A stretch of DNA of 64,000 bases from NCBI GenBank assembly GCA_023374025.1, contig SIJG01000153.1, positions 1 to 64,000 of the forward strand, in the 5' to 3' direction. Numbering within the stretch: the first letter of the stretch is position 1; every line of letters starts with the position of its first letter. Below, in pieces: positions 2,785 through 63,724 of the stretch. The notes under the pieces were generated by a model that saw only the letters and a list, made by a program, of their open reading frames with translations, was not told where the DNA came from and made no database searches. Made by a program: the position numbers and the translations under genes. This DNA comes from Heterodera schachtii. Lineage: Eukaryota > Nematoda > Chromadorea > Rhabditida > Heteroderidae.

Positions 2785-2792
2785 CGGGTTTC

Positions 2793-3359
2793 GGCTCCCG
2801 GACATTTCGACAATGACCAACCGTTTCGCCAAAGACCATTTCGACAATACCTTTTCGACAATGCCGTTTCGACAATAAAATTAATTGGCTGAACTGCTTG
2901 AACTATGCTATCATATCCGTCTCAATTTGTCGCACATACACTAGGGTTCGAGCCGCGCCCCGTGAAAAGCAGACCCGCCCACGGGGATCGACCCTAACAT
3001 ACACAATAGGCGATAGATAATTGCATCATTATGAATAAATTAAAAGAAAATATCCGGTGAGAATTTTTAACATACTTAGGTATTTGTAACACTATGTTTT
3101 TGAGAACAATTTTATATTTAAGTAGCTACTTAACAATTAATTAATAATTTTTATATATTAGTTTTGTTTTTCTATTAATATTAAAAAATTCATAATTTCT
3201 CTTTAAAATTTCATCAATAAGTTTTTTTAAGTTAATTTATTATTTTTAATTAAATATTTGAAATTTTGGCGATATTTTATGGTCGTAAATGGTCATTGTC
3301 GAAATGGGATAGTCGAAAAGGTATTGTCGAAACGGTCATTGTCGAAATGTCCCGCCACC
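2793..3359. mobile_element. Fold-back element, TTTCGACAATG word family, 8-bp TSD
   Basis: Termini are GGCTCCCGGACATTTCGACA on the left and, inverted, GGTGGCGGGACATTTCGACA on the right. The word TTTCGACAAT is repeated several times after each end (2,803-2,875 and, inverted, 3,290-3,347). The element is bracketed by the perfect direct repeat CGGGTTTC at 2,785-2,792 and 3,360-3,367. There is no coding capacity, and a second small element is nested inside. Confidence 0.85.
2942..2996. mobile_element. 55-bp micro-MITE with perfect 8-bp TSD (nested)
   Basis: Starts TAGGGTTCGAGCC and ends GATCGACCCTA. It is flanked by perfect ACATACAC direct repeats (2,934-2,941 and 2,997-3,004). The interior is GC-rich (GCCCCGTGAAAAGCAG, CCCGCCCACGGGG), far above the surroundings. 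It lies within the 2,793-3,359 element, so it inserted later. A related GC block sits at 48,118-48,236. Confidence 0.85.
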
Positions 3360-3821
3360 CGGGTTTCGGCGTCACCCAGCCAGGCTTCTTCAGCAATTGC
3401 ACCCATTTTGCGGTCGCTTCTTCAATATAACAATTTAAATTAAATTTTGATTAAATTATCTTTATGTTATTTAGTACAATATTAATTTTTATATCTTTGT
3501 CAATTTAAACATTAACTAGTGGTATTTATATTTTTTTCGTTTATTATTTTGTTTCTTTTTAAAATAAGGTAATTTTTAAATTAATTAATTTTTAATTTAC
3601 TTATTTTTTTTACTTTAAATATATTTATTATGTATTTTTTAATCCCTAAAAAAATTTAAAAAAAAAATTTAAAAAATTTAAGATTTTATATTTAATTATT
3701 CATCTCTTCTATATTGAAGTAAATTCAAAGCAATTAAAACTAAATTAATTATTTTTTTTGTTTAATTTAAGTGATAATGTTAATTAAGCTTTATATATTT
3801 TTAATGCATTTGATTACGCAT

Positions 3822-3920
3822 TGTTGGAATTTTGTGAAACTTAATTCATAATTTTAAGATTGAAATTTACTCTTTATGTGTTTTATCCACTACCGTTAGA
3901 AATTGATTTTATTGGTTTAC
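3822..3920 (+). repeat. Dispersed AT-rich repeat, copy 1
   Basis: The block containing TTGTGAAACTTA, GATTGAAATT, ACTCTTTATGTG and TTTTATCCA recurs in the same order at about 21,255-21,345, with a more diverged relative at about 22,080-22,140. This links T-rich segments 17 kb apart. Confidence 0.55.
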
Positions 3921-4554
3921 AAGCTTTTTTTTACTTGAATAATAAACATTTTCAAACTCATCTTTTATTTTTTTATAACTTTAATCCTTTCGAGTTAACT
4001 TGTTATTTTAAGTGTAACATTTGATAGCAGTCGCACTTAATAGATTGTATCGAATGAATAATTTATTATAATGATTAATCAAATTTAAATCATTTTTTAA
4101 TAGTTTTTGGTTTGGAAGTTAAAATTTTTTAATTTCATAAAATCATATTATTTCGTTCTTTTGTTATGAACATATTTTAATTAGTTATGATATGCTAATA
4201 TTTTTTATTGATTCATATTATTCTGACATTAATCCTATAACTATATTTATCCTTTCAATTTTTACACTATATTTGTCATTATTTATTTTACTACCTTCTA
4301 TAAAATAAAAGATCAAAAATATAAGAATTTCAAATTTGTTAATGCTTACCTATTTATCAAAAGCTTAATTTACAAAATAATAATATTACTGACATAAAAA
4401 GGAAAGTGTAAAATTAAAAAGAAAATGAAATGAAATTGGAATAAATGCCAAGTGAAACAAAATAACTAATGATTAGGTTAAATAAAAATAGGAATAATGT
4501 ATCCAATTATAGCAATTCAATAAGAAAATGTTGGTCTTGTGCCATCAATAGTGA

Positions 4555-4915
4555 CATATGCACCCGAATCTCGAGTCCCGACATTTTTCTCGACCCGATG
4601 ATTTTGGGTCGGATTTCTGGACAAAAATAAGCACTGGTAAGAAAGGGGTCTGGGTGAAAATTAGGTAGATAAGGAAATTGGCGGAGAAAGAGAAATTTTA
4701 AGAAAAAAAAAATTATTTTATTTACTGAAGTTAATCAAATTCAAATTTGTAATAAAAAATATTTTAACTTAAAAATTATTTTTACTTTTTTAAACAACCC
4801 AAAACCGCAAATTTAACCAAAGGTTTGGGCAAAATCTGTTAACAAATCACACTCAAAATTTCAAATTTTTCCCGGCGGCGCCGATAGGCACTGCCAGACC
4901 ACCTAGTTCCCAAAA
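4555..4915. repeat. Relative of the 52.4-kb element
   Basis: It begins with a CTCGAGTCCCGAC / CTCGACCCGA word cluster, then AAGCACTGGTAAGAA, GGGGTCT, GTTAACAAATCACACTCAAA and a CCCGGCGGCGCC palindrome. The same blocks occur in the same order inside the element at 52,389-53,157. The terminal words differ while the interior is shared. I could not find clear termini here. Confidence 0.55.
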
Positions 4916-15256: not shown

Positions 15257-15263
15257 ACATCCG

Positions 15264-25220: not shown

Positions 25221-25618
25221 GACGCCGGTTCGCCGATGGAGGGTTCGCCGACAAAACGTTTCGCCGACAGACGATTCGCCGATAAAATGTGTGACAGAAT
25301 GTTTTTAAATAAAATTGAAATAAATCATCAACTTTCTGGGAAACCCCCTTAATTAACATTCACTCGCGCTGACTTTATCCTTGACATATATATATATATT
25401 CATTTAGAGCATACTTTTGTAGTGCGAAGCGACGCTAAAAATAGTAACCACTACAAAAGTTCTTTAAAAAGACATAAGTATTTCTTAAATTGATTAGTTT
25501 TCCAGAAATTTCTGATTTATTTCAATTTTATTTAAAAGATTCTGTCCCGAATCTTATCGGCGAATCGTCTGTCGGCGAAACGTCTTGTCGTCGAAACGTC
25601 CATCGGCGAACCGGCGTC
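25221..25618. mobile_element. Fold-back element, TTCGCCGAC word family
   Basis: Left terminus GACGCCGGTTCGCCGATGGA is matched inverted at the right end (TCCATCGGCGAACCGGCGTC). Words TTCGCCGACA / TTCGCCGATG recur four times on the left and, inverted, on the right (CGGCGAA). No clear target duplication: the outermost bases may be diverged. The interior is AT-rich and non-coding. Confidence 0.75.
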
Positions 25619-29058: not shown

Positions 29059-29332
29059 TTATATTTGAGAAAAGAAATGATCGACGATCTCACCCAATTG
29101 GACAATGAATTTGATTTGAATGCTCTCTCATTTTCTCTCAGAAATGCTTTTGTTGATTTTAAAGTGTTAAAAAAAATTCAAAATGTAACGTTTGCAAGTA
29201 GCGCCGAAATTGCTTAAAGTTAATTAAAAAAAAATTTTTTGTCTATACAAATCGAAAAAAGCAATTCGGTACAAATGTAGTGCTCTTCCCTTCCAAAACC
29301 GAAAATTTAAATGAACTGCCCATTGTATGCAC

Positions 29333-30139
29333 CAGGGATGTTGCAAGTTTCGCTTTTCACCTTTCGCAATTTTCGCTTTTTTTGGGCCTTTCGCTTTTCG
29401 CCTTTCGCTTTTTGGCTGAAAAGCGAAAAAAAAGTACACCCCTAAAGATTGGGTTTTTAAAATAAACAAATGCATTTTCGTGGGAGAAAAAGCAAAAAAT
29501 TAACACAAAATTTTTACCAAATTTTTATGAAATAAAGTAAAATTGCTTATTCACCTGTAGTGTGGTGTAGTGGTTAGTGCATCAACCTTGACATTATTTT
29601 CTGTCAGGAGTTCGGTGCCGGTTAACGGTTTCTTTTTTAATTTAATTTTTTTTTAATTTTAAAATTCGCCTGGCGCTACCTATCGGCATCGCCGGGCCCA
29701 AAAATCGTAATTATTCAAAAAAAATTCTCTCAAAATTGCAAAAATCTATCATTTTTTGGACAGATCCATCCAAATTTTCAAAATTTTTCCCGGCGGCGCC
29801 GCCCCCACCCCTTGTTTCCGAAAATGTTTTTGAAAAGCGCATCGAAAAATTATAAATTTTTGAGCCTCGGTTTTCAAAAAGTGAAATATGCGTTTTTACA
29901 ATGTTCTATATAAAATCTACGATAAAAAAAGAAATAAAAAATAAAAGCAAATAAACAGAACAGTTAAGAATTAAAAGGCGAATTTTAAGTATGTCAAATT
30001 CATCTAATTTTTGGAAAAAAATTTCGCCTTTTCGCCTTTCGCATTTTTCGCTTTTTTGGGGCATTTCACTTTCGCCTTTTCGCTTTTTATTTTACTTTCG
30101 CAAATTTCGCTTTTTATTTTTCAATTTGCAACATCCCTG
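29333..30139. mobile_element. hAT-like element, TTTCGC word family, perfect 8-bp TSD
   Basis: Left end CAGGGATGTTGCAAGTTTCG, right end AATTTGCAACATCCCTG. Flanked by perfect GTATGCAC repeats at 29,325-29,332 and 30,140-30,147. The words TTTCGC and TTCGCCTTTCGC fill 29,349-29,425 and 30,022-30,120; here the arrays are mostly in the same orientation. The interior holds a SINE-like segment. Small ORFs inside are word-array translations, not genes. Confidence 0.85.
29555..29820 (+). repeat. tRNA-derived SINE-like segment plus GC palindromes
   Basis: GTGTGGTGTAGTGGTTAGTG resembles an A box and GGAGTTCGGTGCCGG, about 40 nt on, a B box, as in a tRNA-derived SINE head. This is followed by an AT tract, a CTATCGGCATCGCCGG palindrome half, and TTTTTCCCGGCGGCGCCGCC. 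A related piece (GAGTTCTACACCGGTT) is at 47,437. It is nested in the 29,333 element. Confidence 0.5.
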
Positions 30140-30147
30140 GTATGCAC

Positions 30148-30199
30148 CAGGGACGGCACGGAATTCCGAAATTTTTGGGGCCTCGGAATTTCATCGCTG
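30148..30199. mobile_element. 52-bp micro-MITE, GGAATTCCG family, perfect TSD
   Basis: Starts CAGGGACGGCACGGAATTCC and ends CATCGCTG. It is bracketed by GTATGCAC at 30,140-30,147 and 30,200-30,207, the same octamer used by the neighbouring 29,333 element, so the two are adjacent insertions at one target. Relatives at 36,834 and 62,315. Confidence 0.75.
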
Positions 30200-30214
30200 G
30201 TATGCACTGCCATG

Positions 30215-30836
30215 GGCAATGGTATGGAATTGCGGTCCCGACGAAAAAAAATGTTAAAAATTTCGCAGGTATTTTTTCTAGGCTTAAAAAATGCGCTGAT
30301 AACGAATCTGAGCTCAGATTTTGAAAATCAATGATTTTTATCTATGATTTTTCATCAACTACTTGATTTCTTTAATTATTTAAAAAAAAGTTTAGCAATG
30401 AATTTGGGGTTAAAAAAAACTCTGACCATGAATTTAAGCTCTAATTATGCATGAACTTTCATTTTGTCTATGATTTTTCATCAAGTGTCGTAAAAAAACA
30501 AACCGCAGCCAAGCGGACTCGAACCTCAGATCCCCGTCTCATATGACCCCTAGGATTAATAATTAAATTTCAAAAAATCGTAAAAATTTAAAACTTGACT
30601 TTTCCATAAGCTCTTTTTAGGCTCTACAATATCTGTATATGAGTTTTAACGCCTGACTAATTTTCTTAAAATTTTTGAAAAAAATCAAGTAGTTGATAAA
30701 AAATCATAGATAAAAATCAATGATTTTCAAAATCTGAGTTCAGATTCGTGATCATCGCATTTTTTTACTCTAGAAAAAATGCTTTTTGAAATTTTACTAT
30801 TTTTTTCCGTCGGGACCGCAATTCCACACCATTGCC
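30215..30836. mobile_element. Fold-back element with about 150-bp arms, perfect TSD
   Basis: Ends GGCAATGGTATGGAATTGCG and, inverted, GGCAATGGTGTGGAATTGCG, continuing into GTCCCGACG and long complementary arms (30,225-30,370 with 30,670-30,825). Target duplication CTGCCATG at 30,207-30,214 and 30,837-30,844 is exact. A tRNA-like B box (GGTTCGAGTCC, minus strand, about 30,520-30,530) lies inside with T-rich sequence after it. The GG terminus places it in the second structural class. Confidence 0.85.
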
Positions 30837-31693: not shown

Positions 31694-31716
31694 GGCATTT
31701 AGCGCTTAATTTGGTA

Positions 31717-35769: not shown

Positions 35770-37403
35770 ATGAACAGACGGTAAACAAATTTAAAATTAA
35801 TATTAAAAATTTTCATTTTCCAATTTTTTGTTTCCAATTTTCAGATGGATTTGTAGCGACGTGTGGATGGACATTCTTCCATCTTTTCACCGTCCGCAAC
35901 TTGGCTTCAAAATGGCATTGCTTTCTTATCGTTTCGACCTTTTGGTGGACACGCATTTCGATGGAAAAACGGAATTGACGCTTATGAAATTGATTATTAT
36001 AAACAAGGATTGTGGAACAAAACCGAAACTGTCTGTACACATTGATGGCAAATTTGTGGATTTTCCGTTGCCGGATCGTCCATTGCCCAACAATGTTCGA
36101 TTTAAGAACCTTCAGATTGAGTAATTTTCAAAATTTTGTTTATATTAAAACATTTTATATTTCCTTCAGGTACATTGACCATTCCGTTATTGCATTTCTC
36201 CGTGCCAACAAGCACATTTGGGACAGCAAAGGCACCACTTTGGAAATGCCAATGTCGGAAACAAAAATTGATGACAAACAGCCCAAATGGGATGTTTTGG
36301 CGCGTGAAATTTGGCCAATTTTTGGGACAAGCACTCGCTGTTTGAGCCTTAATGATGGCGATCATCTTGACCCTTTGTGTCGTCGCATTTCGCCGACAAT
36401 TCTCACCGATCTTGATCAATTGATTGCAATCGATTTCGAATATATGTTCTTTCATGGAAGAATTGCTGATGATGATGAGCCGAATGCAACTTGTTCTGCT
36501 AGCCAAGTGTTATTCAAATGGTTGCACACTCCGAGCAAAGACGGACAACTGAAGAACTTGCTTTGGAGGGACACGGAATTGGACGAAGAAGGAAGCTTAG
36601 ATTGGATTAACAGTTTCAAGGAGGTGTGTGGTGTAAGGAATGAGCCAGCGGACGGTTAAAACGCTTAAAGCGGGGGCAAAAGATCCATAAAAGGGAAGGG
36701 CTAATGGGACGGCCTGGTAGCTCAGACGGAAAGAGCACTGGTTTGGGCGGGAAGCCGATCGCCGCACCTGAGGTCGAGGGTTCGATCCCCTCCCAGGTCT
36801 ACCATTTTGCCCAACCTTTTCTGTGTTGTGTGGCAGGGATGGCATTTCGAGGCCACAAAAATTTTCACAGATCGGAATTCCGTGCCATTCCTGGTGTGTG
36901 GTCACTTATTGTACTAGTTGCACTACGTTTCTCCGGTACTTCCGTGTTTTGCTACCCCCCCCCCCCCCTCGAAAAAATTGAAAAATAATTTTGTATCAGC
37001 TTCCTTTTGTACAGACATTTATGCGTGCCACCGCTTCAGTCAGTTACCAAATTGTTTTTGGAATTGGCATTGAACCGTTACCAACACCAATTGAGCCGTT
37101 TGAATTGGTGAACGAAGGGACGAAAGAAAAGCTGACACTGAAAGAGGGTGGTTATATTTATTGGCTGTTGAAGCGATGTCCAATTGTTGGTGAGACGACG
37201 GACCCATGGGAAGAGGACGAAAATTGGGACAGCAAATTGAACACAGTCAAATTTTCTTTGTGTGATGGCGGCACCGGCAATTGCATTGGGTGAGCAGCAA
37301 CGGAATTTGATTTTGTCCAAAAAATAAACATAATTTTAGGCCATTGTCGCCACCAGCGGAAGAAGAAGAAAAAGAAGAAGCGGATGAAAGCAACGAAGAT
37401 TAA
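35770..37403 (+). CDS. F-box-like family protein, complete, 359 codons
   Basis: Five exons: 35,770-35,780 (ATGAACAGACG), 35,845-36,120, 36,170-36,623, 37,015-37,289, 37,340-37,403. All junctions are GT-AG and all phases agree, giving 1,080 nt with stop. It begins MNRRWICSDVWMDILP; the first 45 residues are F-box-like (DVWMDILPSF...LGFKMALLS). Then come YIDHSVIAFLRANKHIWDS, REIWPIF, SPTILTDLDQL, FKWLHTPSKDGQLK, TFMRATASVSYQIVF, EKLTLKEGG, WLLKRCPIVGE, GNCIG and an acidic tail (PPAEEEEKEEADESNED). Such families usually supply substrate receptors for SCF ubiquitin ligases; substrate unknown. Intron 3 carries a tRNA gene and a 60-bp micro-MITE. It is the only copy here with no defect. Recognition as a cyst-nematode family is from memory. 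Confidence 0.85.
36658..36706 (+). promoter_or_regulatory. Conserved 5' flank of the tRNA gene
   Basis: GGTTAAAACGC, AAAGCGGGGG and AGATCCATAAAAG in order, matching the flank of the tRNA-like gene at 15.2 kb. CATAAAAG lies about 25 nt upstream of the RNA start. Confidence 0.55.
36711..36800 (+). tRNA. tRNA gene, probably intron-containing, isotype unsure
   Basis: Acceptor stem GGCCTGG with CCAGGTC (one G-T), D arm GCTC...GAGC with A box TAGCTCAGACGG, T arm GAGGG-TTCGATC-CCCTC. The part between D and T arms is long (about 40 nt). The best model is an anticodon stem CTGGT/ACCTG with one T-T mismatch, loop starting TTGGG, and an intron of about 16 nt after position 37. That gives anticodon GGG (Pro), unusual in eukaryotes, so the reading is tentative. 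It lies in sense orientation within intron 3 of the F-box gene. Confidence 0.65.
36834..36893. mobile_element. 60-bp micro-MITE in F-box intron, GGAATTCCG family
   Basis: CAGGGATGGCATTTCGAGGC at the left and GGAATTCCGTGCCATTCCTG at the right. The flanking octamers TTGTGTGG and GTGTGTGG differ at one position. Confidence 0.75.
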
Positions 37404-37654
37404 TTATGTATGTGAGGAATGATCGACGATCTCACCGATTGGAAACGGATTAGATTTGATGCCCTTTTATTTTCTCTCATCAGAAATGCTTTTGTTTGAT
37501 TCTCTTACATTTATTTGTTTGCCTTTTTGTTCCGCGATATTTCTTTGATACCGATTGAAAAGCTTAAAATCTATAGTATTTTTTTTGGTTCTGGTCGGTT
37601 TTACGTGTACAAAATCCAATTTAGTTGACGCAAATTATGGCTCAATTCCAGTTT
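37404..37654. other. 3' flank of the intact F-box gene
   Basis: Shares GAATGATCGACGATCTCACC and TTTTCTCTCA...CAGAAATGCTTTTGTTGATT-like blocks with the 3' flank of the fragment at 29.07-29.16 kb, so 3' untranslated sequence was duplicated with the gene. No further gene seen. An ORF from 37,555 looks like a signal peptide but begins with TTG and reads into the tandem repeat. Confidence 0.5.
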
Positions 37655-37792
37655 ATGCGTCCCATCAATTTTATGCGTCCAATCAATTTTATGCGTCCAA
37701 TCAATTTTATGCGTCCAATATCAAATTTTTATGCGTCCCATCAATTTTTATGCGTCCAATCAAATTTTTATGCGTCCAATCAAATTTTTGTC
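37655..37792. repeat. Tandem array of TTTATGCGTCCAATCAA, about 7-8 units
   Basis: Units of 17-19 bp: TTTATGCGTCCCATCAAT, TTTATGCGTCCAATCAAT and variants. It resembles the word arrays at element ends, but no inverted partner was found. Confidence 0.8.
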
Positions 37793-38699: not shown

Positions 38700-38864
38700 T
38701 TATCGTGACTTCAATCCCGCGGGATTGGTAAAATGGTCGGGAGGGATCCCGATGAAATCCCGATCCCGATCAATCCCGATGAATCTTAAAATTCGCTCGG
38801 GACGGATCCCGAGGTCAGGATCCCGAATTTAATCCCGCGGGATCCCGATCCCGTCCGGTCTCTA
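38700..38864. mobile_element. Right end of a GATCCCG-word hAT-like element
   Basis: ATCCCGATCCCGAT words in both orientations, then GATCCCGTCCGGTCTCTA. CCGGTCTCTA resembles the CCGATCTCTA terminus at 43,052. The related inverted piece AGAGACCGGACGGGATCGGG lies in the F-box fragment intron (28,831). The left terminus is not identified. Confidence 0.5.
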
Positions 38865-40656: not shown

Positions 40657-43600
40657 TTAAGAAGCAGTGGAGACCGAGGCGTTCTTTTGAAATTCGGTCC
40701 ATGCATCGTTCAGTTCCGTGAAAATCGCCTTCGCCAACTGCTCGTGCACGGAGTACACCAATTTGTTCGGTGAACGACCAGCCAAGCGCGACGGTACTGC
40801 TTCTTCACCTGTTGTGGAGGAGGAAAGATTTTGAATAAAGCGAATGAGCAATAAATTGAAAAGATTTTTTTATATGTTATTGCATATTTCAGATTGGTTA
40901 GTCGAAAGATTTGTAAATATAGTAAACAAAAATGAAAAAACATTAAAATATGAATGTTTTTTCAATAGTATTTTTGCTGAAAATTTTCGTTTTTCTTGTT
41001 GTTATACCCTCCAAGATTTACCTCATCAACCAATTTTTGGTGAAAATCTGCTTAGAAAAGAGAGGAAAATCTACAAAAATATCTTGCTTAATTTCATAAA
41101 AATTGCTCAAAATACTACAATACAAGGCATACATAAAATAAAGGGGGAGGGGGTCAGCCGAAATTTCTGCGAAGGGGTCCGGACATCTAAATCGACGAAC
41201 ATTTTTTCTTGATTTTAAAAAGCGCTTTTTTTGCGGTGCGTTTTTTTCAAAAAATTGACAATTATAAAATAAACCCTAAAATGCGATTCCAACCCAAAAA
41301 ATGGAATAAAAATTCAAAATGTTCTTTAAATCTCTCATTTTCCTTCGGGTTTCCCTTTTGCCATAAAATTGCTTAAATTGGGGCAATATTTTTCGTAAAA
41401 ATGGGATTTCAAAATATACCGAATTTTCATTAAAATTTTCAGGAGGTTCCGCCGGGCTCTGTATTTTCTCAGAGATTGGCATAAAAAACGAAAAGCAAAA
41501 TCTGATCAATAAAACCCACCCAAATGTCCTGCGCTGGTCCAATGGGAAAGTTTCGGTAAGTGTCCAACACTTCGGGCGCCCGATACATTGGCGTAGTGAA
41601 TTTGGCAATCTGAGAACAATGGGAGAAAATTGTAATGCATCAACAGCAAAAAAAATGTGTAAAGAAATCAAAATCTATCGAACAACCCCAAAAATGCTTT
41701 ATTTAGTTAACAGCGGAAAAAAATGCTCAAAAAATTATTCGGCGACGTTTTGGGAAGCACCATAACATTAGGGGAATGTTTTCAAATATATCGAACAAAA
41801 AACTTTTAAAGAAAAATTTGGCAATATTTAATTGTTTCTGCATACAAAATTTTGGGAGCAGTTCGTTCCGCAACTGAAAAAATTAAAAAAAACCTATAAT
41901 TTTTTAATTTTCTATTTCAGGCTGTTACAAGTTGAAAAATTTAAAAAATCTCAAGTTTTTTTTGTTGAAATATAAAAAAGTAAAGCAAAAGTTACGTCGC
42001 TTAACGAGCTCGCGCCAAAGAAAATCAAATAAATACGAATCCAACAAATGGGGTGCGCCTTCAAAACAGGAAAGTACAAAAAATTTGTAGAATTATCTAC
42101 ATAGAAAAAACTTCAAAGAATAGGAAAATCAAAAATTTTATGGGACGGGTACGAAATGGATCATCAATTTTTTGGAGCCAAAAGGACTCAAATCCCTAAA
42201 AGCAACTGACCTCCTCCTCAACTTGCGAGCGGACCAATGCGCTCCATTCGTCGCATGGCCTGTAAATGTCAGTGGTTGCGCCCCCAAAGTCGCACATTTT
42301 GATGTGTCCGTGGGCATCGAACAGCAAATTTTCAATCTAAAAACTCGAGCACATTTAATTTTTGAGTGCGTATTTTTCAAAGCCCCTAAATCCTAAAAAA
42401 ATTCATACACAGAAACTTTTCAAAAAAAACTTATTGTTAGAAGATTTCACAAAAAATTTCAAGAAAATGAGAGGAAAAACAAGTTGTACAATTTGCTCTC
42501 ACACAACATAATGGGAAATTTCTAGAGACCGGCCTGGACCTGGATCCAGGCCTGGATTTTTCCTGGATCCAGGTCCAGGTCCAGGCCATTTTTCGGAAAC
42601 CTGGATTTTTCCTGGACCTGGATTTTCCTGGATTTTTGTCCAGGAAATCCAGGTCCAGGTCAAATGTTAAAAAAAATCCAGGTCCAGGTCCAGGCAAAAC
42701 AGGAAAAAACCTGGAGTTTCCTGGACAGAATTTTAGAATTTATTATTTCAAGTGACCGATATTTTTTCAAGTTTTCAAAAAATGATTAAATATATTTAAA
42801 AACAAATTATTATTGTAAATTAGATATTTTTAGATGTTCCCAAGCAATTTATTGATTTTTTCAAACATTTTTTGATTTTTAAAATGAATTTCAAAAAATC
42901 CAGGTCCAGGCCTGGATCCAGGTCTCGAGGAGCCTGGATTTTTCCTGGACCTGGATTTTCCTGGATTTTTGTCCAGGAAATCCAGGTCCAGGTCCAACAT
43001 GGAATCCAGGTCCAGGTCCAGGTCCAGGCTTTTTTCAAAATACCGATCTCTAGAAATTTCCGTTAATTTAACAAAAAAATATTTTCATAAATAATTTAAA
43101 AGATTAAATGAATTTTGTTTGCCATTTTTTGATGCAAAAATTATAGTACAAAATGCAGAAAAGCAAAAAAAGTTCACTTTGATGTCCCGCTGGGTGATCG
43201 GTGGGTTTCGGTCGTGCATGTGATTGATCGCTTGGGCAGTGGCGTACAAAATTTTGCAAACCTAAAAAAACAAATTTTTATAAAATTTGCATTTTATTTT
43301 AAATTCCAATGGCCTAAAACGAATTTAATAAAATCATTACTACATTCCGAAAAAAGGCTTACGGTTGTAGAACGGACATTTTTCAAATTAAAAACCAAAC
43401 GAATGCCAAAAAGATTGTTTTAAAACATTATTTGACAAAAAAAGGATGTTAAAAAAGGCGAATGGGAAACTGTACCACCACGGTAGGACTACCGTATGAG
43501 ACGGAACTACCGTAGGAAATGGTCCCCTAGAACTGCCGTCCGTACCTGTTTGCCAAATTTGGGTGGACGAGAACATAGAAATGAATGTCCAACCCCACAC

Positions 43601-43870: not shown

Positions 43871-44584
43871 GGTTACCTATCATTTCGTCACTGATCGTTT
43901 CGCCACTGTTCAGTTCGTCACTGATCATTTCGTCACTGAGACATAATTTTTAAAAAACATTGACAAATTTCAATAAAATTATCCCATAAAATTATTAATT
44001 GGTTTAAAATTCTCTAAAAATTATTCCTGGGTAAGAGTACCACCGGTGGTAGCCCCTTTTCGAAATTTTTTCTTGAGATTTTAAAAATCGAAAAATGAGT
44101 TTATAAGGTTTTCAAGGTCGCTGATCACGAATTTGATGTTGTCCTAAATGATATTGTTCTGAGATATCGATGAGGATTTTCTGCTGCTACTTTCTGCTCT
44201 AATTCTTCAAAATTTGATGCAAATTGTTATCTTGGTCAACATTGTGAGATTTACGTTTAAGATCATTCCCTCTAGCCATTTGTAGGCGCTTTTTCATACT
44301 CAGCAAAGAAATATTTCCTTTAATCATTTCTTAGTTAACATATTTTTTTATGTGATCCATAAAGCTCTGTTGAAGATGACTTAAATTGGTCATTAAAAAA
44401 TAAATAAAACGAAAACTGAAGTCCGCAATTTGCGAGAAAACAAATGGCAATTATATAAAAGTTTTAAAACCAAAATTTTTTCAATATTTAACTAAAAATT
44501 TTTAAAAATTATTTCTCAGTGACGAAATGATCAGTGACGAACTGAACAGTGACGAAACGATCAGTGACGAAATGATCGGCCACC
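43871..44584. mobile_element. Fold-back element, TTTCGTCACTGATC word family, perfect TSD
   Basis: Left GGTTACCTATCATTTCGTCA and right, inverted, GGTGGCCGATCATTTCGTCA. Four words on each side (43,879-43,941; 44,517-44,577). Target duplication TTTAAAAA at 43,863-43,870 and 44,585-44,592 is exact. Belongs to the GG-ended class with 2,793 and 62,724. Confidence 0.9.
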
Positions 44585-45282: not shown

Positions 45283-45626
45283 TTTTTGTATGAGTAGGGC
45301 TGGGAATTTAAGTCAAATGACTTTTTTTTTGTTGAATCTAAATGGCCTCAAAATGACTTAAAAAGTGTTCTAAACTCTGTTTGAAGTTTCTAACGCGCAT
45401 TTTTTGTGACTTTTTAGAGCTTTTGCGACTTTTTCCGTGATTTTTTGTCTTTTTGAGGCAAAATTTGAATTTTAGCGAAGAAAATGCCGAAAAATACAAA
45501 GAAAATCCGAAAAATAAAATTTCGATCGATAAAAAGGCAATGAACCTGCAATGGTAAAGAACCCGAAAAAATTTTTTTTTTTTTAATTTGAGAAAATTAT
45601 TTTTAGGGGTCATCCGAGGTGATAAG

Positions 45627-46265
45627 TAGGGCATAGAAAAATATGGACATAAAATCGCGAAATATGGCCATAAATATGGACAACAAATCGCGAAATATGG
45701 TCATAATAGCAAAAATATGGACATAAATTTTTCGAAATTAAGGGCATAATTTCTCAAAATTTCAAATTCGCTAAATGTAAAGTAAAACGTTCAAAAATGG
45801 CTAAATATGTTATTAAAAATCATTTTAGTATAAAAAACATGATAAAGCTAAGATTTATTCATTTTTTGCGAAAAATCAACCCAAAAAGGGAAAATTGCGC
45901 TTTTTGCTTATTTTTGACACAAATTTATTAATTTTTAAGAAAATTTAAATTTATTCAATATTCTCGAGAAAATTTGGCGAAAAAAGATTTTTTGAAATTT
46001 CCGGTTTTTGGGCTCAAAAAGGCCAATTTAGCTGCTGGGGGCCGTTCAAATAGAGGTTTTTTGGAAAAATGCCAAAATATGGACATAAAATATGGATAAA
46101 AATGCAAAATATGGAAATATGGACATAAATCGCGAAATATGGAAAATATGGATATAGAAATCCATCCTAGAAGCTTCTAATCAAGCTAAAAACATGTTTT
46201 TCGTGCGTTTCAGACCTCCCATAGTCCAGGAAAAAATATGGATTTCCATATAATTCTATGCCCTA
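45627..46265. mobile_element. hAT-like element, ATATGGACATAAA words (nested)
   Basis: Left TAGGGCATAGAAAAATATGG, right CCATATAATTCTATGCCCTA. Target octamers GTGATAAG and GTGATAAT (7 of 8). The words AATATGGACATAAA and TCGCGAAATATGG fill 45,640-45,735 and 46,074-46,155. Confidence 0.85.
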
Positions 46266-46272
46266 GTGATAA

Positions 46273-47138
46273 TAGTGCTGCCCGAGACTCTCGGTCTCGA
46301 GTCTCGACTCGAGAAAAGTCTCGGGTTTTTTTGGTCTCGGTCTCGAGTCTCGGGTTTTTAAGTCTCGGTCTCGGTTTTCGAGACTCGAGACCGAGACCGA
46401 GACTTTTTTATACCCCTAATGATTGACTTTTGGTAAACTTCTATTTTATAAATTTTAGGTCATTTTTTGTTCAATTTTGTTTACATATGCGTGGTCCAGT
46501 GTGTTGTGTTCTTATTTCTGTTCCGTATTTTCTCGTAGGATCAGTTCCCCTCCAAGTATTTACAAAATTAATGTTTTTTTTTCGATGGGAATCCAATCAC
46601 AATTTAACAATTAAAATCGTAAAATATTGTCATTTTTGGACTAAATTCAAAATTTTCCCCGGCGGCGCCTAACGGCACCGCCGGCACCCAAAACTCCTAT
46701 TTTTCTTTTAAAAAAGTAGCTCAAAGTCACAAAATTGGGATATTATTTGGATAAAATCTGTTAACAAATTGTACTCAAATTAAAAAAATTTCCCCGGCGG
46801 CGCCTATCGGCACCGCCGGAGCTCTAAACCCTTTATTTCTTTAAATTGACTCAAAAACCGCGAAAAAAACTAACGAATTTTTTGTTTTGTGCGTTTTTGA
46901 TTGATAAAAAATGGTACCTAATTGAATCAAAATTTAAAAAAAAAACCAAAAATTGGCTAAGAAAAGACTCAAAATAATTTTTAAACGATTTTTAAGCGAA
47001 TAAGAAAATTTTTTGAAAAAAGTCTCGAGTCTCGGGTTTTTTGGGTCTCGGGTTTTTTGAGTCTCGGAATCGGTCTCGAGTCTCGGGGTCAAGTCTCGGT
47101 TTCGAGTCTCGGGAAATTTTCGGTCTCGAGCAGCACTA
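46273..47138. mobile_element. hAT-like element, TCTCGGTC word family, perfect TSD (nested)
   Basis: Left TAGTGCTGCCCGAGACTCTC, right GGTCTCGAGCAGCACTA. Exact AGTGATAA duplication at 46,265-46,272 and 47,139-47,146. The words CGAGTCTCGG / GGTCTCGAG fill 46,280-46,400 and 47,020-47,130. The interior holds two GC palindromes (46,658-46,692; 46,793-46,821). Confidence 0.9.
46655..46825. repeat. Two copies of the GGCGGCGCC...GGCACCGCC palindrome
   Basis: CCCCGGCGGCGCCTAACGGC and CCCCGGCGGCGCCTATCGGC, each followed by the complementary ACCGCCGG half. Preceded by GTTAACAAATTGTACTCAAA in the second. Other copies: 1,008; 4,870; 29,680-29,815; 38,364; 47,632; 52,738; 59,390. Confidence 0.75.
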
Positions 47139-47427
47139 AGTGATAAGCATGAATATAACATTCTTTTGGCTTTATTTCGAACTCCGAACCCGGACTCGAA
47201 CGTTTTTCGAAAATTTTTGTTTTTTTACAAGTTGTCAGGGCGTTGATTTATTTTTATTTGTACACCAAATGTATGAGTAAACATAAGGATTCGGATGTGG
47301 TTCACATCAAATCAAGCCTTAGCAATCAATATTAACAAAAAAGACTTTTTTGTGACTTTTTGGCGATTTTTTATGACTTTTTAGTCGACTTTTTGAAGAT
47401 TTTTAGTGACTTAAATTCCCAGCCCTA

Positions 47428-48117
47428 GTTATGAGTTCTACACCGGTTGACGTTTTCTTTTGATTTTATTTTTTTCCAATTAATACAGGGTTTTCTATAT
47501 GTTCTTATTTGTAAGAAATGTTCTGATTTGGGGGTAATGCCTTATTTTCATTTAAAAGAGGGAAATTTCTGAAAAACTTGGCTAATTTCTAACAAAATTC
47601 ATATAGTCTTAAAATTTTTCCCTTGCGGTGACAATCGGCACAGCCGGCACCCCAAAAATCATATTTTTTCTTAAAAATTAGCCAACGATTTAACCTTTTG
47701 TCCTTTTTTGGACAAAATTTGTTAAAAATTGCATTCAATTTTCAAAATTTTTTCGGCGGTCTCCCCTCGCACATTCGCCAAGTTTTTTGGAAAAGTGCCG
47801 CAAAAAATGTTAATCTGATTTAGTGATCCCGAATGCACTGAAATTTGTGATAAATATAATAAGAGAATGCATTTTTGATCGAATAAAATGTAAAAATATT
47901 TGAAGCATTTTTGCAAAATGTTCTTATATTTAACTCTAGTCTTATTTTTTGGCCTTTCTTATTTTGAAAATTTTGAGACAGAAACCCTGGATTAATAGAC
48001 AAAACACCAATAAAAAAAGAATTAAATCGAGGCGATACAACGAATAAAGGAATGTGGAGCCAAACACATCCTTCAAAAAAATTATTTTTTTGTAAGATTT
48101 TGGAGCTAATTAAAAGC
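47428..48117. other. Non-coding repeat-rich stretch
   Basis: 47,437-47,460 is the SINE-like GAGTTCTACACCGGTT piece; 47,625-47,660 is a diverged GC palindrome. Nothing gene-like. Confidence 0.45.
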
Positions 48118-48236
48118 AAACCCCCGCCCCCGTCCCCGGGGGCGAGTCATTTGCTCACTCACGCCCCGCGACTCTGACCCCCGCAATCCCCCGCCCCCGC
48201 GAAAAGCCACCCCCGCCCACGGAGGGCGAACCCTAA
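48118..48236. repeat. GC-rich block related to the 2,942 micro-MITE
   Basis: CCCCCGCCCCCGTCCCCGGG, then GAAAAGCCACCCCCGCCCAC and a GGGCGAACCCTA end. The element at 2,942-2,996 has GAAAAGCAGACCCGCCCACG and ends ATCGACCCTA. The left TAGGG end is not visible here. Confidence 0.55.
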
Positions 48237-48237
48237 T

Positions 48238-55362: not shown

Positions 55363-57014
55363 CCTTTTTTCTAAGATTTGTCCTTTTTTGGAGGGGCCCG
55401 ATCTTAGAAAGCTAAAATGTAATTTTTCTAAGATTTTCCTTTATTTTGGGGTGCTAGGTCGATGCGAAAAAAAACAGCTTATTTAAAAAGCCTCATTTGT
55501 CCTTTTTTTGAAAAAAAACTTGGCCACTATGCCTATAAATTAGCATAGAAAAATAAAAAGATTTTTTGGCTTTTGAAAATGTTATTCTGGGGAGAAACGT
55601 GTGGGGCTTAACTGACGTAGATCGTTCAAATTCGTATTTCAATATTTTGAAGGTTTTGTCAAAGTTTTGTAAATATTTGACATTTTTCAAATTTTCATGT
55701 AAAATTCAGAAATTCTTTAACAAGAATGCAATAAAAAATATTTTTTTTTTGACTCGATGACATTTTGGCACATGTTTAAAAAATTCAAAAATTTTTTTCT
55801 AAATAAATCACTTTGCATAAAAAAATTGTGGCCACATTCAAAAGGAAATGTGGCCACATTCTAAAAGAAATATTCATTCGGCAATATGTTTAAGAAATAT
55901 TGCGTAAGAATTGTATAAATATTTTAGAAAAAGTTTAGAATGCTAGAAATTGTTCCTAGAAGGAATCTGAGCGATTTTTTTAATTTTAATTGTAAAATGA
56001 AGCATTGCCAAAAACACATAAATTTAAAATTAATTTAATGATGATAATTAACAATTCGATTAATAACAAATTGTTTGCTTTATTGGGTCATTCTTTCTTT
56101 TTAAAGCCATCCTTACTATAGTTGGGCATATTTTGTCATTTTTTATAGCATCGATAATTTTTTAAAATTTTTATTGGCATTTTCCAATTTCTAACACAGC
56201 TCAGCCTAGACCAATAATTTCATTTAAAATTTTGAGAAAATGAAAAAGATTTTACCGTTTATAAATTTGAAATTGAATCTTTAAAAAAGACATAATGAGT
56301 GAAAACCAAGAAAAAAAACCATTGTATCTTTAAAGGATTTAAAAAATCGAAAGGACAGCCCCGACTATCGAGGAGACCCTCCAAAAAAATGAGAAATTTC
56401 TCGACTTGCAAATTTTAAAAAAGCTTTACTTTTTACCAAGAGGGTGCTTCTTGCGGTTCCTGGTGATTGGGGATAAACTTTTTCCAAAATTTTTAAAAAT
56501 TTCTAGAAATTAAAGGGAAACTTGTGATACCTCGTTTCCTACTGGCAAAATTTTCTTGAAATTTTGTTGGCCAAATGTTCCCGTTTTTGCCTCTCATCAG
56601 ATGTTCATCCAGCAGTTTGTTGTTTTAAAATTTTCATTTTACGTAAATTATTCAGAAAACTGAATGACGATGAGACAGAATAAAAAATTACAAAATTCTC
56701 CACCCCAAAATTTTGTCAATTTTCATCATAATTTTTCACGCGGATTTGGCGGACCGTCGACGGATGGGAAACAGCAGAAGAAACGGCTTGGAAAAAGCAG
56801 CGATCAGAATAATTAAGAAATTGTTAAAAAATCATCTTAATAATTTAAAAAGCTGGAAAGTGCCAAAATCTTAATTTTTGTTCGCTAGACTGCTTGAGAT
56901 GAGAATTACAGAGACGCGAAACCATCACCGAGACGTATACTTAAATGTTTTATAAAAAGACATTTAATTTGAATTAATTAATACTCATTTAAATATGTGT
57001 TGGGTACGCTACCG
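55363..57014. other. Non-coding stretch
   Basis: AT-rich with scattered repeats. 55,830-55,870 has a twofold GTGGCCACATTC. No exon could be supported. Confidence 0.4.
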
Positions 57015-57414
57015 GGGTCAAGGCAGTTCGTACAATGGCGTTTCGTACAATTTGAAATGGGAATGGCCATAACTTTTTTATTCGTCCGTTAATTTCTTCA
57101 AAATTGGTATCATTCGAAAGCTCTACGTGTTTAGAAGCTATCATTAAGCAGAAGCTAAGCGATTAGTCAGTTCACCAAAAAGTTATGATTTATAAGACTT
57201 AAAAATTCAAGAAAATCCTAATTTTTTCTAAACTATAAACCATAACTTTTTGATGAGATGATTAATCGTTTAGCTTCTGCTTAATGATAGCTTCTAAACA
57301 CGTAGAGCTTTCGAATGATACCAATTTTGAAGAAATTAACGGACGAATAAAAAAGTTATGGCCATTCCCATTTCAAATTGTACGAAACGCCATTGTACGA
57401 ACTGCTATCGACCC
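57015..57414. mobile_element. Fold-back element with arms of about 190 bp, TTCGTACAATG words
   Basis: GGCAGTTCGTACAATGGCGT then TTCGTACAATTTGAAATGGG is exactly mirrored at 57,357-57,408. Arms including TTGGTATCATTCGAAAGCTC are almost perfect. Outer flanks ACGCTACCG and ACGCTAACCG suggest an imperfect target duplication. Confidence 0.8.
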
Positions 57415-58760: not shown

Positions 58761-59146
58761 TAGGGCTGCCAAAAATATGTACAAAAAGGGGTCAAAATAT
58801 GTATATAAATATGTAAGAAATATGTACAAAAACCCCCCAAATATGTACCAAATATGTAAATAAAAAATTTTTTAAAGATTATTTTTTGGAAAAAAATTCC
58901 TCGTAAATGATGAAATAGGCACAAAATGCCATAAAAATGACTTAACTAGGCTTAGAATCACCTTTCAATATTTTAAAAATTATTTTTTTCTCTATAAATT
59001 TTCAAAAATTCAAAATATGTAAAAAAAATAAAAATGTACAAAAATATTTTTTATGATTTCCAAAAATTTCCGTAAAAAATCGTCAAAATATGTAAAAATA
59101 AAAATATATATGAAAAAAATCCAAAATATGTACCAAATATGTACCA
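58761..59146. mobile_element. hAT-like element, AAATATGTAC word family, right end lost
   Basis: Starts TAGGGCTGCCAAAAATATGT. AAATATGTACAAA words at 58,774-58,860 and 59,015-59,143. The right terminus is replaced by the TACCGTATATG repeat at 59,147, so that piece inserted or recombined later. Confidence 0.6.
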
Positions 59147-59239
59147 TGGGCTATAATTAGAGCATATACGGTATCTATACCTAAAGCAAACCCTATACTT
59201 GGAAGATAAGACTTTTGATCAGCATCAAAAGTTAGCTGA

Positions 59240-59600: not shown

Positions 59601-59689
59601 CCCCCTGAAGCCAAGGGTCTGGCTACGCCTTTGAGCTGAGCAGTAATTTTTTCAGAATTTTATTTCAATAAAAAATTGAGTTTGGGTCG

Positions 59690-60531: not shown

Positions 60532-61676
60532 TCATTTGTCAGAAGTCGCCCCATTTTCGCTGCTTTGTCCCGCTTCTTCTTCTGCCGGTGGCGACAATGG
60601 CCTAAATTAAGCGCAATTTTTATTTTGATTATTAAAGCAAAAAGCTGTTGCCACTCACCCAATGCAATTTCCATAAAACGTAAAGCTGATATGGTTCAAA
60701 TTGCCCGAATTTTGGTTTAACGCGGCCTTTGTTTCCCCAATTTTGCATCGCTTCATCAGCCAATCAACACCGGTATTTTCACGATCGCCTTCTTTCTCCA
60801 ATGTCAGCTTTTCGTTGGTCCGTTCGTTCATCAATTGAAATGGCACAATTTCCGTTGGCTCCTCATAAACAGTAAATTGAATTTGATAGCTGGCGGAAGA
60901 AGTGGTGGCACGGATAAATTTCTAAAAATGGGAAATGAAAATCAAATGGCAATTAATCCAACGAAAATGTGGCCACACACCTTCTTGAAATTGTTGACTA
61001 AATCAACGATTTCTGACGAATCAGTCCAGCAAATCAATTGCTTCGGTTGGCCATCTTTTCCCGGGATGTGAAGCCATTCAGACAGAATTTGGCCAGCAGA
61101 ATATGCAAGTGGCTGATCAAAATCACCACCAATCTCATCGAGCAATTCATTTGGAGAAGTGAAACGAAGCAAACTGTACAGATGATCAGCATTTTTGAAT
61201 TCCAATTGGCGAATGTTTGGAGCGAAAATTGGCAAAATATGGCGGATCAAAGCATTCCAAATTGGCTGGACTAAAGGTTTTGTTCGACAATTGAATTTCC
61301 AAATCGGTGCCTTTGTCAAAAATTTGTTGGTTTGCACGGAGAAATGCGATGACAGAATGGTCGATTTAGCTAAAAAGGGAATGGTTTATCGTTAATCAAT
61401 ACTTTTGAATTCGAACTACCAAATCCGAAGTTGCTTGAAGCGAATTTTGTCGGGTAATGGACGGTTGGGCAGTGGAAAAGGCACAGATTTGCGACCAATC
61501 CGTACAGATAATTCTTGTCAATTTTGATTGGTCTCCAAATTGTCAATTCTGATTGGCCATCGAAATGTTTGTCCACCAATGCATTAAAACGTGGTGAAAG
61601 AAGTGCCATTTTGAGGCCGAGTTGAGGACGATCAAAAAATGGGAACATGTCCATCCACACGTCGGTGCAAATCCAA
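60532..61676 (-). pseudogene. F-box-family pseudogene, all exons but three lesions
   Basis: Exons on the minus strand: 61,676-61,420 (WICTDVWMDMFPFFDRPQLG, LKMALLSPRF), 61,369-60,981, 60,921-60,659 (KFIRATTSSASYQIQF, ERTNEKLTLEKEG, FYGNCIG) and 60,601-60,532 (PLSPPAEEEAGQSSENGATS, DK, stop). Lesions: a frame change near 61,500 in exon 1 (expected FPLPNRPLPDKIRF is in another frame); TAC to TAA turns the first Tyr of exon 2 (YIDHSVIAFLR) into a stop; a further shift near 61,275 before QPIWNALIRHILPIFAPN. Exon order and all splice sites are preserved, so inactivation is recent. It faces the next copy head to head. Confidence 0.8.
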
Positions 61677-61900
61677 CTGAAGATGAGAAAAATACGTTAA
61701 AACGGTCTTAAAAAATGAAATTTCTCATAAATTTTTTATTTTAGGCTAGATAAATTATTATTTTTCTAAATGGCACCTGTCAAAAAAAAGAAAAAACTTT
61801 CCTCCGTCAATCACCGCCCATTTTTGAAACTAATCAACAGAAACTGTTGGGCTCATTTGTAACATTTGGAATACGACAAAGTGTTCACGTGGCCTTGAAA

Positions 61901-62601
61901 ATGAATAAGCGAATTTTGAAGAAAATGTGAGAAAATTATTGGGTTAAAATTTAATAAATTTTATTTTTTAAGACCGTTTCAAACATTTTTCCCCGTGTTC
62001 AGTTGGATTTGCACTGATGTTTGGATGGACACTCTCCCATTTTTGGTCGTCGTCAACTCGGCCTCAAATGGCACTTCTTTCGCCACGTTTCAATGCGTTG
62101 GTGGACAAACATTTCGATGGTAAATCAGAATGGACAATTTGGAGACCAATCAGAATTGACAAGATGCGAACAACCGCAAAATTGTTTGTTGAGAAGAGCA
62201 ATGGCAATTCAAAGCAATTTCCATTGCCGAAATATCCGCTGTCCAACAAAATCCGCTTTGAGAACCTTTGGATCGCGTAATTCAAAACTCTTTCATTCCA
62301 CAAATCATTTGAATCAGGGGATGGCACGGAATTCCGAAAAATTTTTGACCCTCGGAATGCCATCCCAGATTTTAATGATTTGAACTATCTTAAAAGTATT
62401 CCCTTTTTCAGCTACATCGATCACTCTGTCAGCACATTTCTTCGTTCCAACGAGCAAATTTTTGACAAAGGCATCGATTTGAGTTTGTATGTGCCTTCAG
62501 GCGACGATTATCAGCCAATTGAAATGCTTTTGCCAGTGGAATTTGGACCATTTTCGCGCCAATATTCGCCATTTGAGTTTTTCTTATCATCATGCTCTTG
62601 A
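61901..62601 (+). pseudogene. F-box-family pseudogene, truncated, divergent partner
   Basis: A likely original start exon ATGAATAAGCG (61,901) is no longer followed by a GT donor. Exon 1b 62,003-62,276 starts WICTDVWMDTLP; single-base losses in the T run near 62,043 and the A run near 62,069 shift the frame twice (274 nt against 276 in the intact gene). Exon 2 from 62,412 reads AYIDHSVSTFLRSNEQIFDK and ends abnormally at FFLSSCS (62,601). Exons 3 and 4 are missing and an element begins at 62,656. Exon 1b is nearly identical to the opposite-strand copy (LVDKHFDG...SE.TIWRPI.IDK). Confidence 0.8.
62315..62368. mobile_element. 54-bp micro-MITE in F-box pseudogene intron
   Basis: CAGGGGATGGCACGGAATTC at the left, CGGAATGCCATCCCAG at the right. 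Target octamers ATTTGAAT and ATTTTAAT differ once. Same family as 30,148 and 36,834. Confidence 0.8.
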
Positions 62602-62723
62602 AAATTGATATTTACTTAATATCCACATACATTATGACACCAACGTAATATCAACTAGAGAAAGGCAAATCAACATTTTTCTCTTAGCGGATGTTGTTTT
62701 AATTAAATATCAACATTGATGTT

Positions 62724-63504
62724 GGTAACATGTGATTTCGTCAGAAGTGATTTCGTCAGTAAGGGATTTCGTCAGTGATAAGGAATTCTTTTACAAAAAA
62801 ACTTAAATAATTCATAAATTCGTTGAAATTTATTAAACAAATATGTAAATTCAATATATTTTATTTGCTCGATTGTAAACCTTGGTTATTTCGGCCGGTC
62901 AATTATATTTTAAATAATTATATTTGTGCTTCGTCTTTGCTACTTTTATTCATGTACATATGTTTATTTCTAGATGATGGCCAGCCATTATCATTCTGCA
63001 CTAACCTCAAAATTTCTTTTAAATTTTTTACCAGGGATGGAGCGCAATTGCGGGATTTTTTCTGCGACCCGTGATTTGCGACTGCGGCAATTTTTAGTCC
63101 GCGCTCCACCCCCTGTTTCTTAGTAATAATTATATATTTTGAGTTGTAGTTGTTGGTCTTAGTCAGTTTTGTCCGCGAATCGAATCGTTTTGCGTCGTCA
63201 GCCGATCACGTGTGGAGGCTACTTGTACCTTTTTAGTAGTTGAATTTCGCGCAGCCCAGCAGCAGACGGAATAAGCGGGTAACATTAAAAGAGCAAATCA
63301 AAATTCTTTCGACAAGACCAATTTGGTAATACTTGTAGAAGATTTTGCAAATCGTGATCTCTTTAGAATATTTACAGGCTTGTATTACTCGAATTTTTGA
63401 TTTTTTAAATAATACTTGGATAGGTATACGTTTTTTAAGAATAAATTTTCACTGACGAAATTACTCACTGACGAAATCACTTACTGACGAAATCACCGGG
63501 AACC
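62724..63504. mobile_element. Fold-back element, GATTTCGTCAGTG words, perfect TSD (nested)
   Basis: Left GGTAACATGTGATTTCGTCA and right, inverted, GGTTCCCGGTGATTTCGTCA. Exact TTGATGTT at 62,716-62,723 and 63,505-63,512. Three words on each side. The interior has a short ORF without recognisable homology. Confidence 0.9.
63032..63115. mobile_element. 84-bp micro-MITE, third nesting level
   Basis: CAGGGATGGAGCGCAATTGC at the left and GCGCTCCACCCCCTG at the right; GCGAC / TTGCG words inside. Flanks TTTTTTAC and TTTCTTAG agree at six of eight positions. Confidence 0.65.
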
Positions 63505-63724
63505 TTGATGTTGACTCTCCCAAATGATATTCCCGCTAAAAGTCATTTTTAAAAAATTGCTTTAAATTTTCAAAAAATGATACAAATTTTAAAAATAGCG
63601 TTGATATAACGTTGATTGGCATTATGTTATGTTGATTTAATTAAATATCAACATCAATGTTGATATTTATTAAAACAACATCCGCTAAGAGAAAAATGTT
63701 GATTTGCCTTTCTCTAATATCAAC

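Follow-up and report, generated by a model that had tools for sequence, protein, structure and literature searches.

Subterminal word arrays in fold-back elements of the nematode Heterodera schachtii: putative transposase-binding sites that differ by one letter between sister hAT families

Transposons of the hAT superfamily duplicate 8 bp of target DNA and carry short terminal inverted repeats with the motif C/TA-G-N-G. Here, we analyze a stretch of 64,000 nucleotides of the Heterodera schachtii genome (contig SIJG01000153.1, positions 1 to 64,000; hereafter, the window), which contains a swarm of fold-back elements with a short word repeated near each end, and we compare these word arrays with those found beside hAT transposase genes of the same genome. 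The transposases of the superfamily are known to bind short repeated subterminal motifs, such as AAACGG in Ac/Ds and CGATTCAT in Herves (PMC3260210, PMC3143072). As in the elements described here, for which binding is putative, these motifs are repeated near the ends, kept in many nonautonomous copies, and different between hATs; unlike here, each of those elements has one motif set, whereas this genome has 24 word clusters and sister elements whose words differ by one letter in nearly every copy. In Hermes, the BED helix also reads short subterminal repeats, with base contacts by S66, N67, and R70 together with Q64 and the main chain, although these repeats, AAG(T/C), are concentrated toward the tips, while the words found here are longer and often tandem (PMC10368747). 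Last, hAT-encoded CGGBP-type domains recognize motifs that are mostly CGG or CGC, with some AT-rich ones, and match their own subterminal regions, as was found for all four hAT proteins in the work on CGGBP/hAT-19; those measurements differ in being made across species with microarrays, and the available part of that paper reports no replacement of word arrays between sisters (PMC8097297).

The component parts of the system are known, and what appears to be new is the letter-by-letter hAT series within one genome. We found no such series, with words differing letter by letter alongside the fingers, in searches of the open full-text literature, which leaves most subscription papers outside. The original prediction, made from the sequence of the window, knew of no description of such a word-swapping series in nematodes; for the hAT series, this agrees with our searches of the open literature, and it does not hold for the GG-ended design, already published for root-knot nematodes (PMC3169594). 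How a transposase and its many binding sites at two ends change together is an open problem, and this genome offers sister elements one letter apart, with their fingers, which makes the step directly testable. They would likewise yield pairs on which to train a recognition code of BED fingers, useful for domesticated hAT proteins (ZBED, CGGBP), and a rule to assign orphan nonautonomous elements to the enzyme that mobilizes them.

Word arrays beside hAT transposases

A search of the genome's contigs with the hAT dimerization domain gave at least 141 matches (150 of 238 candidates were scored), 70 of which were read: the 30 best, with flanks of 1.5 kb, and 40 lower-ranked loci, with up to 700 bp downstream, skipping apparent duplicates. 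The 3' terminus, placed by eye, was located in 64 of these 70 loci (CTCTA, CCCTG, CCCTA, or similar), and in these loci the array occupies the interval from the gene to that terminus. Another locus, L081, is outside the 64 analyzed arrays and carries the terminus of L036. The commonest hexamer of each array was compared with 200 dinucleotide shuffles and lay above all of them in 50 of the 64 arrays, with P values of 0.01 to 0.04 in 8 more.

The spectra of repeated words grouped 62 arrays into 24 clusters, with CG present in the top word of 16. Word similarity tracks domain similarity (Mantel rho of 0.33, with none of 999 permutations as high), and the mean cosine between word spectra drops from 0.88 for near-identical domains to 0.22 at score ratios of 0.7 to 0.9 and 0.07 at 0.5 to 0.7. 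Meanwhile, the terminus CCGGTCTCTA is common to lineages with different words. Given this steep fall-off and the existence of clusters that join distant transposase groups, the words appear to turn over quickly and similar words to recur, with termini such as CCGGTCTCTA being shared.

Many arrays of the window matched those beside transposases when compared against the 64 arrays at an E value of ≤1e-6: 42567-43052 with L029/L101; 29362-29413 and 30037-30120 with L035; 30161-30199, 34414-34543, and 36834-36882 with L012/L025; 38744-38849 with L015-L019; 53000-53157 with L079/L083; 62692-62724 and 63584-63716 with L076/L086; 48063-48235 with L085; 47852-47974 with L098; and 55489-55527 with L100. 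Most of the C/TAG-ended elements belong to the hAT superfamily, with target duplications of 8 bp, and we consider it probable that their words are binding sites for the zinc finger of their own lineage's transposase. The proposal that hAT transposases bind the words, and that these turn over under constant termini, is well supported for the C/TAG-ended elements, with the binding itself putative, on account of the same words beside hAT genes, the CCGGTCTCTA terminus of lineages with different words, and the one-letter differences between sisters described below. It does not extend to the GG-ended elements, whose features suggest Mutator/Foldback (Tm1-like) or Merlin.

One-letter differences between sister families and the transposase finger

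Two pairs of sister loci were compared over their full arrays, counting word copies intact in at least one partner; the Fisher tests take sites as independent. L094 (target site duplication [TSD] TTTTAAAC) and L097 (TSD GAAATAAC) were read at both ends and have a word array at each, ATCCGG in one and ACCCGG in the other. The second letter is T versus C in 12 of 13 aligned copies at the 5' end and 7 of 7 at the 3' end (19/20), compared with differences at 8 of 120 other word positions and 46 of 315 sites outside the words (P = 3e-16 and 5e-14, respectively). For L011 and L014 (TCCTGC/TCCCGC), the fourth letter differs in 16/16 and 11/13 copies at the two ends (27/29 overall: 20 T/C, 6 G/C, 1 T/A, and 2 unchanged), while differences amount to 5/140 at other word positions and 33/324 outside the words (P = 5e-24 and 1e-21). 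As a separate observation, the hAT copies L087 and L094 have their 3' flank and octamer in common, which probably reflects segmental duplication of a single insertion.

Nearly exclusive words were also found in other sisters: TCCCGG in L079 (10 copies) and L083 (9), TACCGG in L080 (17, and 1 in L079), and ACCCGG in L082 (10, and 1 in L080); TCCGTA in L021 (11) and also in L024 and L109, CCCGTA in L037 (8, plus 2 TCCGTA), and CCCGTG in L032 (12, plus 3 CCCGTA); and TTACGG in L078 (9) versus TCACGG in L090 (14). Two or three copies of the neighbor's word are present in each of L024, L109, L037, and L032. A possible word shift was seen by eye in a distant hAT group ending in CACCTTA, with TAGGAAACTA words in L111, L112, and L114 versus ACAGGTTTC in L113, although it was nonsignificant in the shuffle test.

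We propose that the finger docks on the many word copies of each end and brings the ends together. If its specificity shifted, it would cease to move copies with the old letter, and copies carrying the new one would spread; selection on mobility would then rewrite the array, which would thereby change as a whole, and sister families would stop mobilizing each other. With the letter difference, each enzyme is likely restricted to mobilizing its own family.

BED-type fingers were found about 1.2 to 2.8 kb upstream of hAT domains, and many of these domains have BED matches upstream (Pfam BED, 2.5e-14 for L079 and 4.4e-13 for L080). We aligned the fingers of 16 elements, all from the first hAT group, classified by the number of CCCG in the 3' array (at least 8 versus at most 2). 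Column 48 is the sole column of 73 without a residue common to the two classes (TTTTTMCC in the CCCG class versus VVIVAVIN), and it is the position before the zinc-binding histidine. The crystal structure of the Hermes BED domain with DNA places R70, which precedes H71, among the base-reading residues (PMC10368747), and column 48 would be its equivalent by alignment on the zinc ligand. For column 48 alone, the pattern arose in 2 of 462 block labelings; for the columns of S66, N67, and Q64, in none. L079 and L080 have a C-to-H spacing of 17, as in Hermes, and their change of word letter accompanies K to M at the Hermes S66 position and R to K at the R70 position, which are two of the nine differences between them in the 46 residues compared. 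Searching solved structures by sequence gave one match, which was irrelevant (E value of 1.1). The column 48 pattern is only suggestive of the residue before the zinc-binding histidine helping to read the changing letter. A bolder version, which we regard as possible but doubtful, is a hAT finger code in which this residue (Hermes R70) sets the word letter, with T, C, or M going with CCCG words and V, I, A, or N with others, and in which families split by a finger change followed by rewriting of the arrays at both ends, one letter at a time. If so, sister families would become mutually immobile within one genome.

Several observations weigh against binding by each lineage's own finger. Many of the hAT loci are near-identical copies, and the locus counts are not independent. 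There was no word enrichment over shuffles in 6 of the 64 arrays (L095, L100, L105, L111, L112, and L113), and three of the 24 clusters consist only of arrays failing that test. The words are not strictly lineage specific, as 4 of the 24 clusters bring together transposase groups that are distant or different (L009/L010 with L079/L083, sharing GTCCCGG; L021/L024/L109 with L078; L090 with L093/L099/L110; and L012-type with L020-type). For four of the word lineages found in the window (GTCTCGG, ATATGGACATAAA, GACTTTTT, and TACATATTT), there was no match among the 64 arrays. Unchanged copies persist in both aligned pairs (2 of 29 in L011/L014 and 1 of 20 in L094/L097). Regarding the finger, L094 and L011 of the first group have no Pfam BED match, L097 is below the cutoff (0.052), and the L014 finger is truncated; the CGGBP1 finger is likewise reported as unmatched or below the Pfam BED cutoff (PMC8097297). 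The column 48 pattern was noticed before it was tested, and when any column is allowed, a disjoint one appears in 158 of 462 block labelings (11 blocks) and 169 of 5,000 free permutations.

A separate search for a transposase partner of GTCTCGG, the word of the element at 46273, found none among the 40 of 3,257 first-look candidates that were scored; among the places listed, two (on C140 and C21) are no more than 3 kb from hAT matches, L026 and L086, which carry other words.

Alternative origins of the arrays

The arrays could have been homogenized by recombination (unequal exchange or gene conversion), as satellites are, with words that are not selected by protein binding. Words do expand into satellites in this genome, as the 16-bp word of the 62724 family forms a satellite-like array of at least about 7 kb beside or inside an element copy (C54, approximately 177,759 to 184,669), and TTTATGCGTCC has grown into a 2.5-kb array on the window's own contig, about 100 kb from the window (C153:167,577-170,101); in Drosophila, the foldback repeats of Tetris turned into a satellite (PMC4079207). 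However, in L094/L097 and L011/L014, the word copies are separated by spacers, which align one to one and are not homogenized, and one word position takes nearly all the within-word change, at both inverted ends. Satellite-like expansion by itself leaves unexplained why interspersed copies should change at a single position, and do so at both ends, and we give homogenization only a small share of the probability.

It is unlikely that the words bind a host factor or serve transcription or silencing, being linked to the transposase by descent only. Kinship alone would give the resemblance among arrays, and similar words do recur in distant transposases, but sister transposases differ in their words within one genome, with the same host factors, and column 48 of the finger correlates with the word class.

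Even less credible is the rewriting of the words by directional mutation, such as CpG decay or a similar bias. TCCCGC to TCCTGC is indeed a CpG-to-TpG change, and the top words of two-thirds of the clusters (16/24) hold CG. Nevertheless, the complementary product CCCAC is absent from both arrays of the pair (CCCAC/CCTGC/CCCGC counts of 0/18/1 in L011 and 0/0/26 in L014), which led us to reject CpG decay; in addition, six copies of this pair differ as G/C, and the ATCCGG/ACCCGG difference lies outside CpG. The weakest candidate, ordinary microsatellites or chance low-complexity sequence, which the original prediction had named against itself, draws on the near-expected totals of ATCCCG and TTTCGCC and on the 6 arrays that failed the shuffle test, and it is rejected for the lineages that passed (50/64), whose arrays sit between transposase and terminus, beat the shuffles, and correlate with the transposase.

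Elements of the window and their superfamilies

The 15 family words initially listed for the window are all present, 13 of them at least 6-fold above a first-order Markov expectation; ATCCCG (21 seen versus 16.6 expected) and TTTCGCC (21 versus 10.4) are unusual in their clustering only. The word was said to appear inverted at the far end, which is not so for every word, ATATGGACATAAA being present on one strand only. The ends of 17 elements were defined by eye, and their flanking octamers were then compared. The ten octamer duplications reported earlier were exact (8/8) on recheck, and one more, at 31713 (CTTAATTT), brings the exact cases to 11 of 17. Three elements have one mismatch (36834, 45627, and 62315), and 45295 has two, as does an 18th element at 63032; none was seen at the by-eye ends of 52389 and 58761. 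Word arrays at 25221, 27215, 28311, and 57023 showed no clean duplication by eye. The elements at 29333 and 30148 have one octamer in common, GTATGCAC, three times in a row, and are not independent cases; within 29325-30207, its three in-register copies part two different hAT-type elements, which makes two insertions into a single octamer.

Among the C/TAG-ended elements, most of which are hATs, the 8-bp target duplication is exact at 2942, 29333, 30148, 42523, 46273, and 62656 and imperfect or absent at 36834, 45295, 45627, 52389, 58761, and 62315. Their short terminal inverted repeats follow the C/TA-G-N-G pattern, with a poor match past the tip in some mini-elements, and the autonomous relatives that share their ends and words encode the hAT C-terminal dimerization domain, no such relative having turned up for the four word lineages without a match among the 64 arrays. 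Eight genome copies of the 42523 element were fetched, and the octamers match within a copy and differ between copies, being exact in 5 of the 6 loci with both ends (window copy included) and with one mismatch in the sixth. Elements are also nested, 46273 within the duplication of 45627, 45627 within 45295, and 62724 within 62656. At the insertion point of 62724, the hAT relatives L076 and L086 read ATCAACATTGAGGTTGATTC without the insert, a comparison similar to an empty site, and L075 has a more diverged version of the same uninterrupted sequence. The hAT-type features of the window are as follows.

42523 to 43052, forward strand: hAT nonautonomous element, word CCTGGA/TCCAGG, ends TAGAGACCGG / TAGAGATCGG, TSD GAAATTTC; copies genome-wide, array recurring next to the L029 and L101 hAT transposases (261 bp at up to 95% identity)
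29333 to 30139, forward strand: hAT nonautonomous element, word TTTCGCC/TTTCGCTTTT, 14-bp perfect ends CAGGGATGTTGCAA, TSD GTATGCAC; array matches L035
30148 to 30199, forward strand: 52-bp hAT-type mini-element, word CGGAATTCCG, TSD GTATGCAC in common with the 29333 element; array matches L012/L013/L102
34414 to 34556, forward strand: array TCGGAATTCCG ending in GTGCCATCCCTG, hAT lineage L012/L025; 34414-34543 is 83% identical over 145 bp to L025
36834 to 36893, forward strand: hAT-type mini-element CAGGGATGGC, TSD with one mismatch
62315 to 62368, forward strand: hAT-type mini-element, word GGAATTCCG, TSD with one mismatch
38714 to 38864, forward strand: ATCCCG array ending in CCGGTCTCTA, hAT lineage L015-L019
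52389 to 53157, forward strand: hAT-type element with the word TCCCGG and perfect ends of 16 bp, TAGAGTTGAGCGGGAC; no TSD seen, and L083 matched at 86% over 155 bp
62656 to 63716, forward strand: hAT element, word GTTGAT, perfect 16-bp ends TAGAGAAAGGCAAATC, TSD ATATCAAC; parts match the transposase-bearing L076/L086
2942 to 2996, forward strand: 55-bp hAT-type mini-element TAGGGTTCGAGCC, TSD ACATACAC; inside 2793-3359, terminus like that of L085 by eye
48063 to 48235, no strand assigned: CCCCCG array, hAT lineage L085, by array match; absent from the initial list
46273 to 47138, forward strand: hAT-type element with the word GTCTCGG, ends TAGTGCTGC, and TSD AGTGATAA; lies within the TSD of 45627-46265
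45627 to 46265, forward strand: hAT-type element, word ATATGGACATAAA, ends TAGGGCATAG, TSD GTGATAAG (one mismatch), split by the 46273 element
45295 to 47427, forward strand: hAT-type element, word GACTTTTT, 16-bp perfect ends TAGGGCTGGGAATTTA, TSD 6/8

The other elements end in GG or are related to Merlin.

2793 to 3359, forward strand: GG-ended foldback element, word TTTCGACAATG, TSD CGGGTTTC
43871 to 44584, forward strand: GG-ended foldback element, word TTTCGTCACTG, TSD TTTAAAAA
62724 to 63504, forward strand: GG-ended foldback element, word GATTTCGTCAGTGA, TSD TTGATGTT; inserted in 62656-63716
30215 to 30836, forward strand: GG-ended element, inverted arms of 179 bp that are 84% complementary, TSD CTGCCATG
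33406 to 34414, forward strand: Merlin element (DDE_Tnp_IS1595), perfect inverted arms of 223 bp
37652 to 37789, forward strand: TTTATGCGTCC array; on contig C57, this array stands on both sides of a Merlin gene, in inverted orientation

The idea that all the elements follow one design was not borne out. Of the 30 loci fetched for the 43871 family, 11 showed both ends: five have an exact 8-bp duplication (L042, L043, L046, L056, and the window copy, L039), three have an exact 9-bp duplication (L040, L045, and L055), and the remaining three have none (L048, L049, and L051). Because of the 9-bp duplications, this GG-ended family departs from the strict 8-bp duplication of hATs, and a single superfamily for all the elements is ruled out. 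The swarm contains at least two, and probably three, superfamilies (hAT, Mutator/Foldback-like, and Merlin).

The 43871 family has asymmetric outer motifs, GGTTACC and GGTGGCC, and a tandem unit of 14 to 16 bp. This resembles Tm1, a Mutator/Foldback element of root-knot nematodes with asymmetric outer motifs, tandem repeats of 13 to 15 bp inverted at the other end, duplications of 8 to 10 bp, and a MULE transposase (PMC3169594). The GG-ended elements match Tm1 in duplications, asymmetric outer motif, and tandem repeats and differ in their words, and one weak MULE-domain match (E value of 2.5e-4; C25:1046912-1047118) was placed inside an element here, a 2.5-kb relative of the 2793 element. The GG-ended elements, similar in layout to the hATs, probably use other enzymes, Mutator/Foldback (Tm1-like) or Merlin, and we infer that the 2793 and 62724 families belong to the same superfamily as 43871. 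A Merlin gene was sought in the 43871-family loci, with matches in the window only.

The TTTATGCGTCC family is Merlin. On contig C57, a DDE_Tnp_IS1595 domain (61324-61707) lies between TTTATGCGTCC arrays at 59110 (forward) and 61851 (reverse) in one locus, and a second Merlin locus on C327 has one TTTATGCGTCC array among the matches listed. Merlin elements also have a DDE_Tnp_IS1595 transposase, and internal tandem repeats are mentioned for them; the TTTATGCGTCC family differs in its inverted arrays around the gene, the term "subterminal" being absent from the main text of that paper (PMC8101967). Three other Merlin elements (L069, L072, and L073) have exact 8-bp duplications, and no word occurs more than three times in them. 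The arms of the window Merlin at 33406-34414 are 100% complementary, so it is probably recent; no duplication was seen at its ends by eye.

Some minor features complete the window. Exon fragments of one host gene family are repeated at 32170-33460, 36990-37420, and 61200-62600 (by eye), and one of these exons had no match in Pfam. Four partial copies of the 46273 element occur every 2.3 kb at C79:273470-280881, a tandem segmental repeat. Last, the window element at 57023-57405 has inverted arms of 172 bp that are 97% complementary, with 39 bp between them, the word TCGTACAATG at each end, and a possible 7/8 duplication, ACGCTACC/ACGCTAAC, seen by eye.

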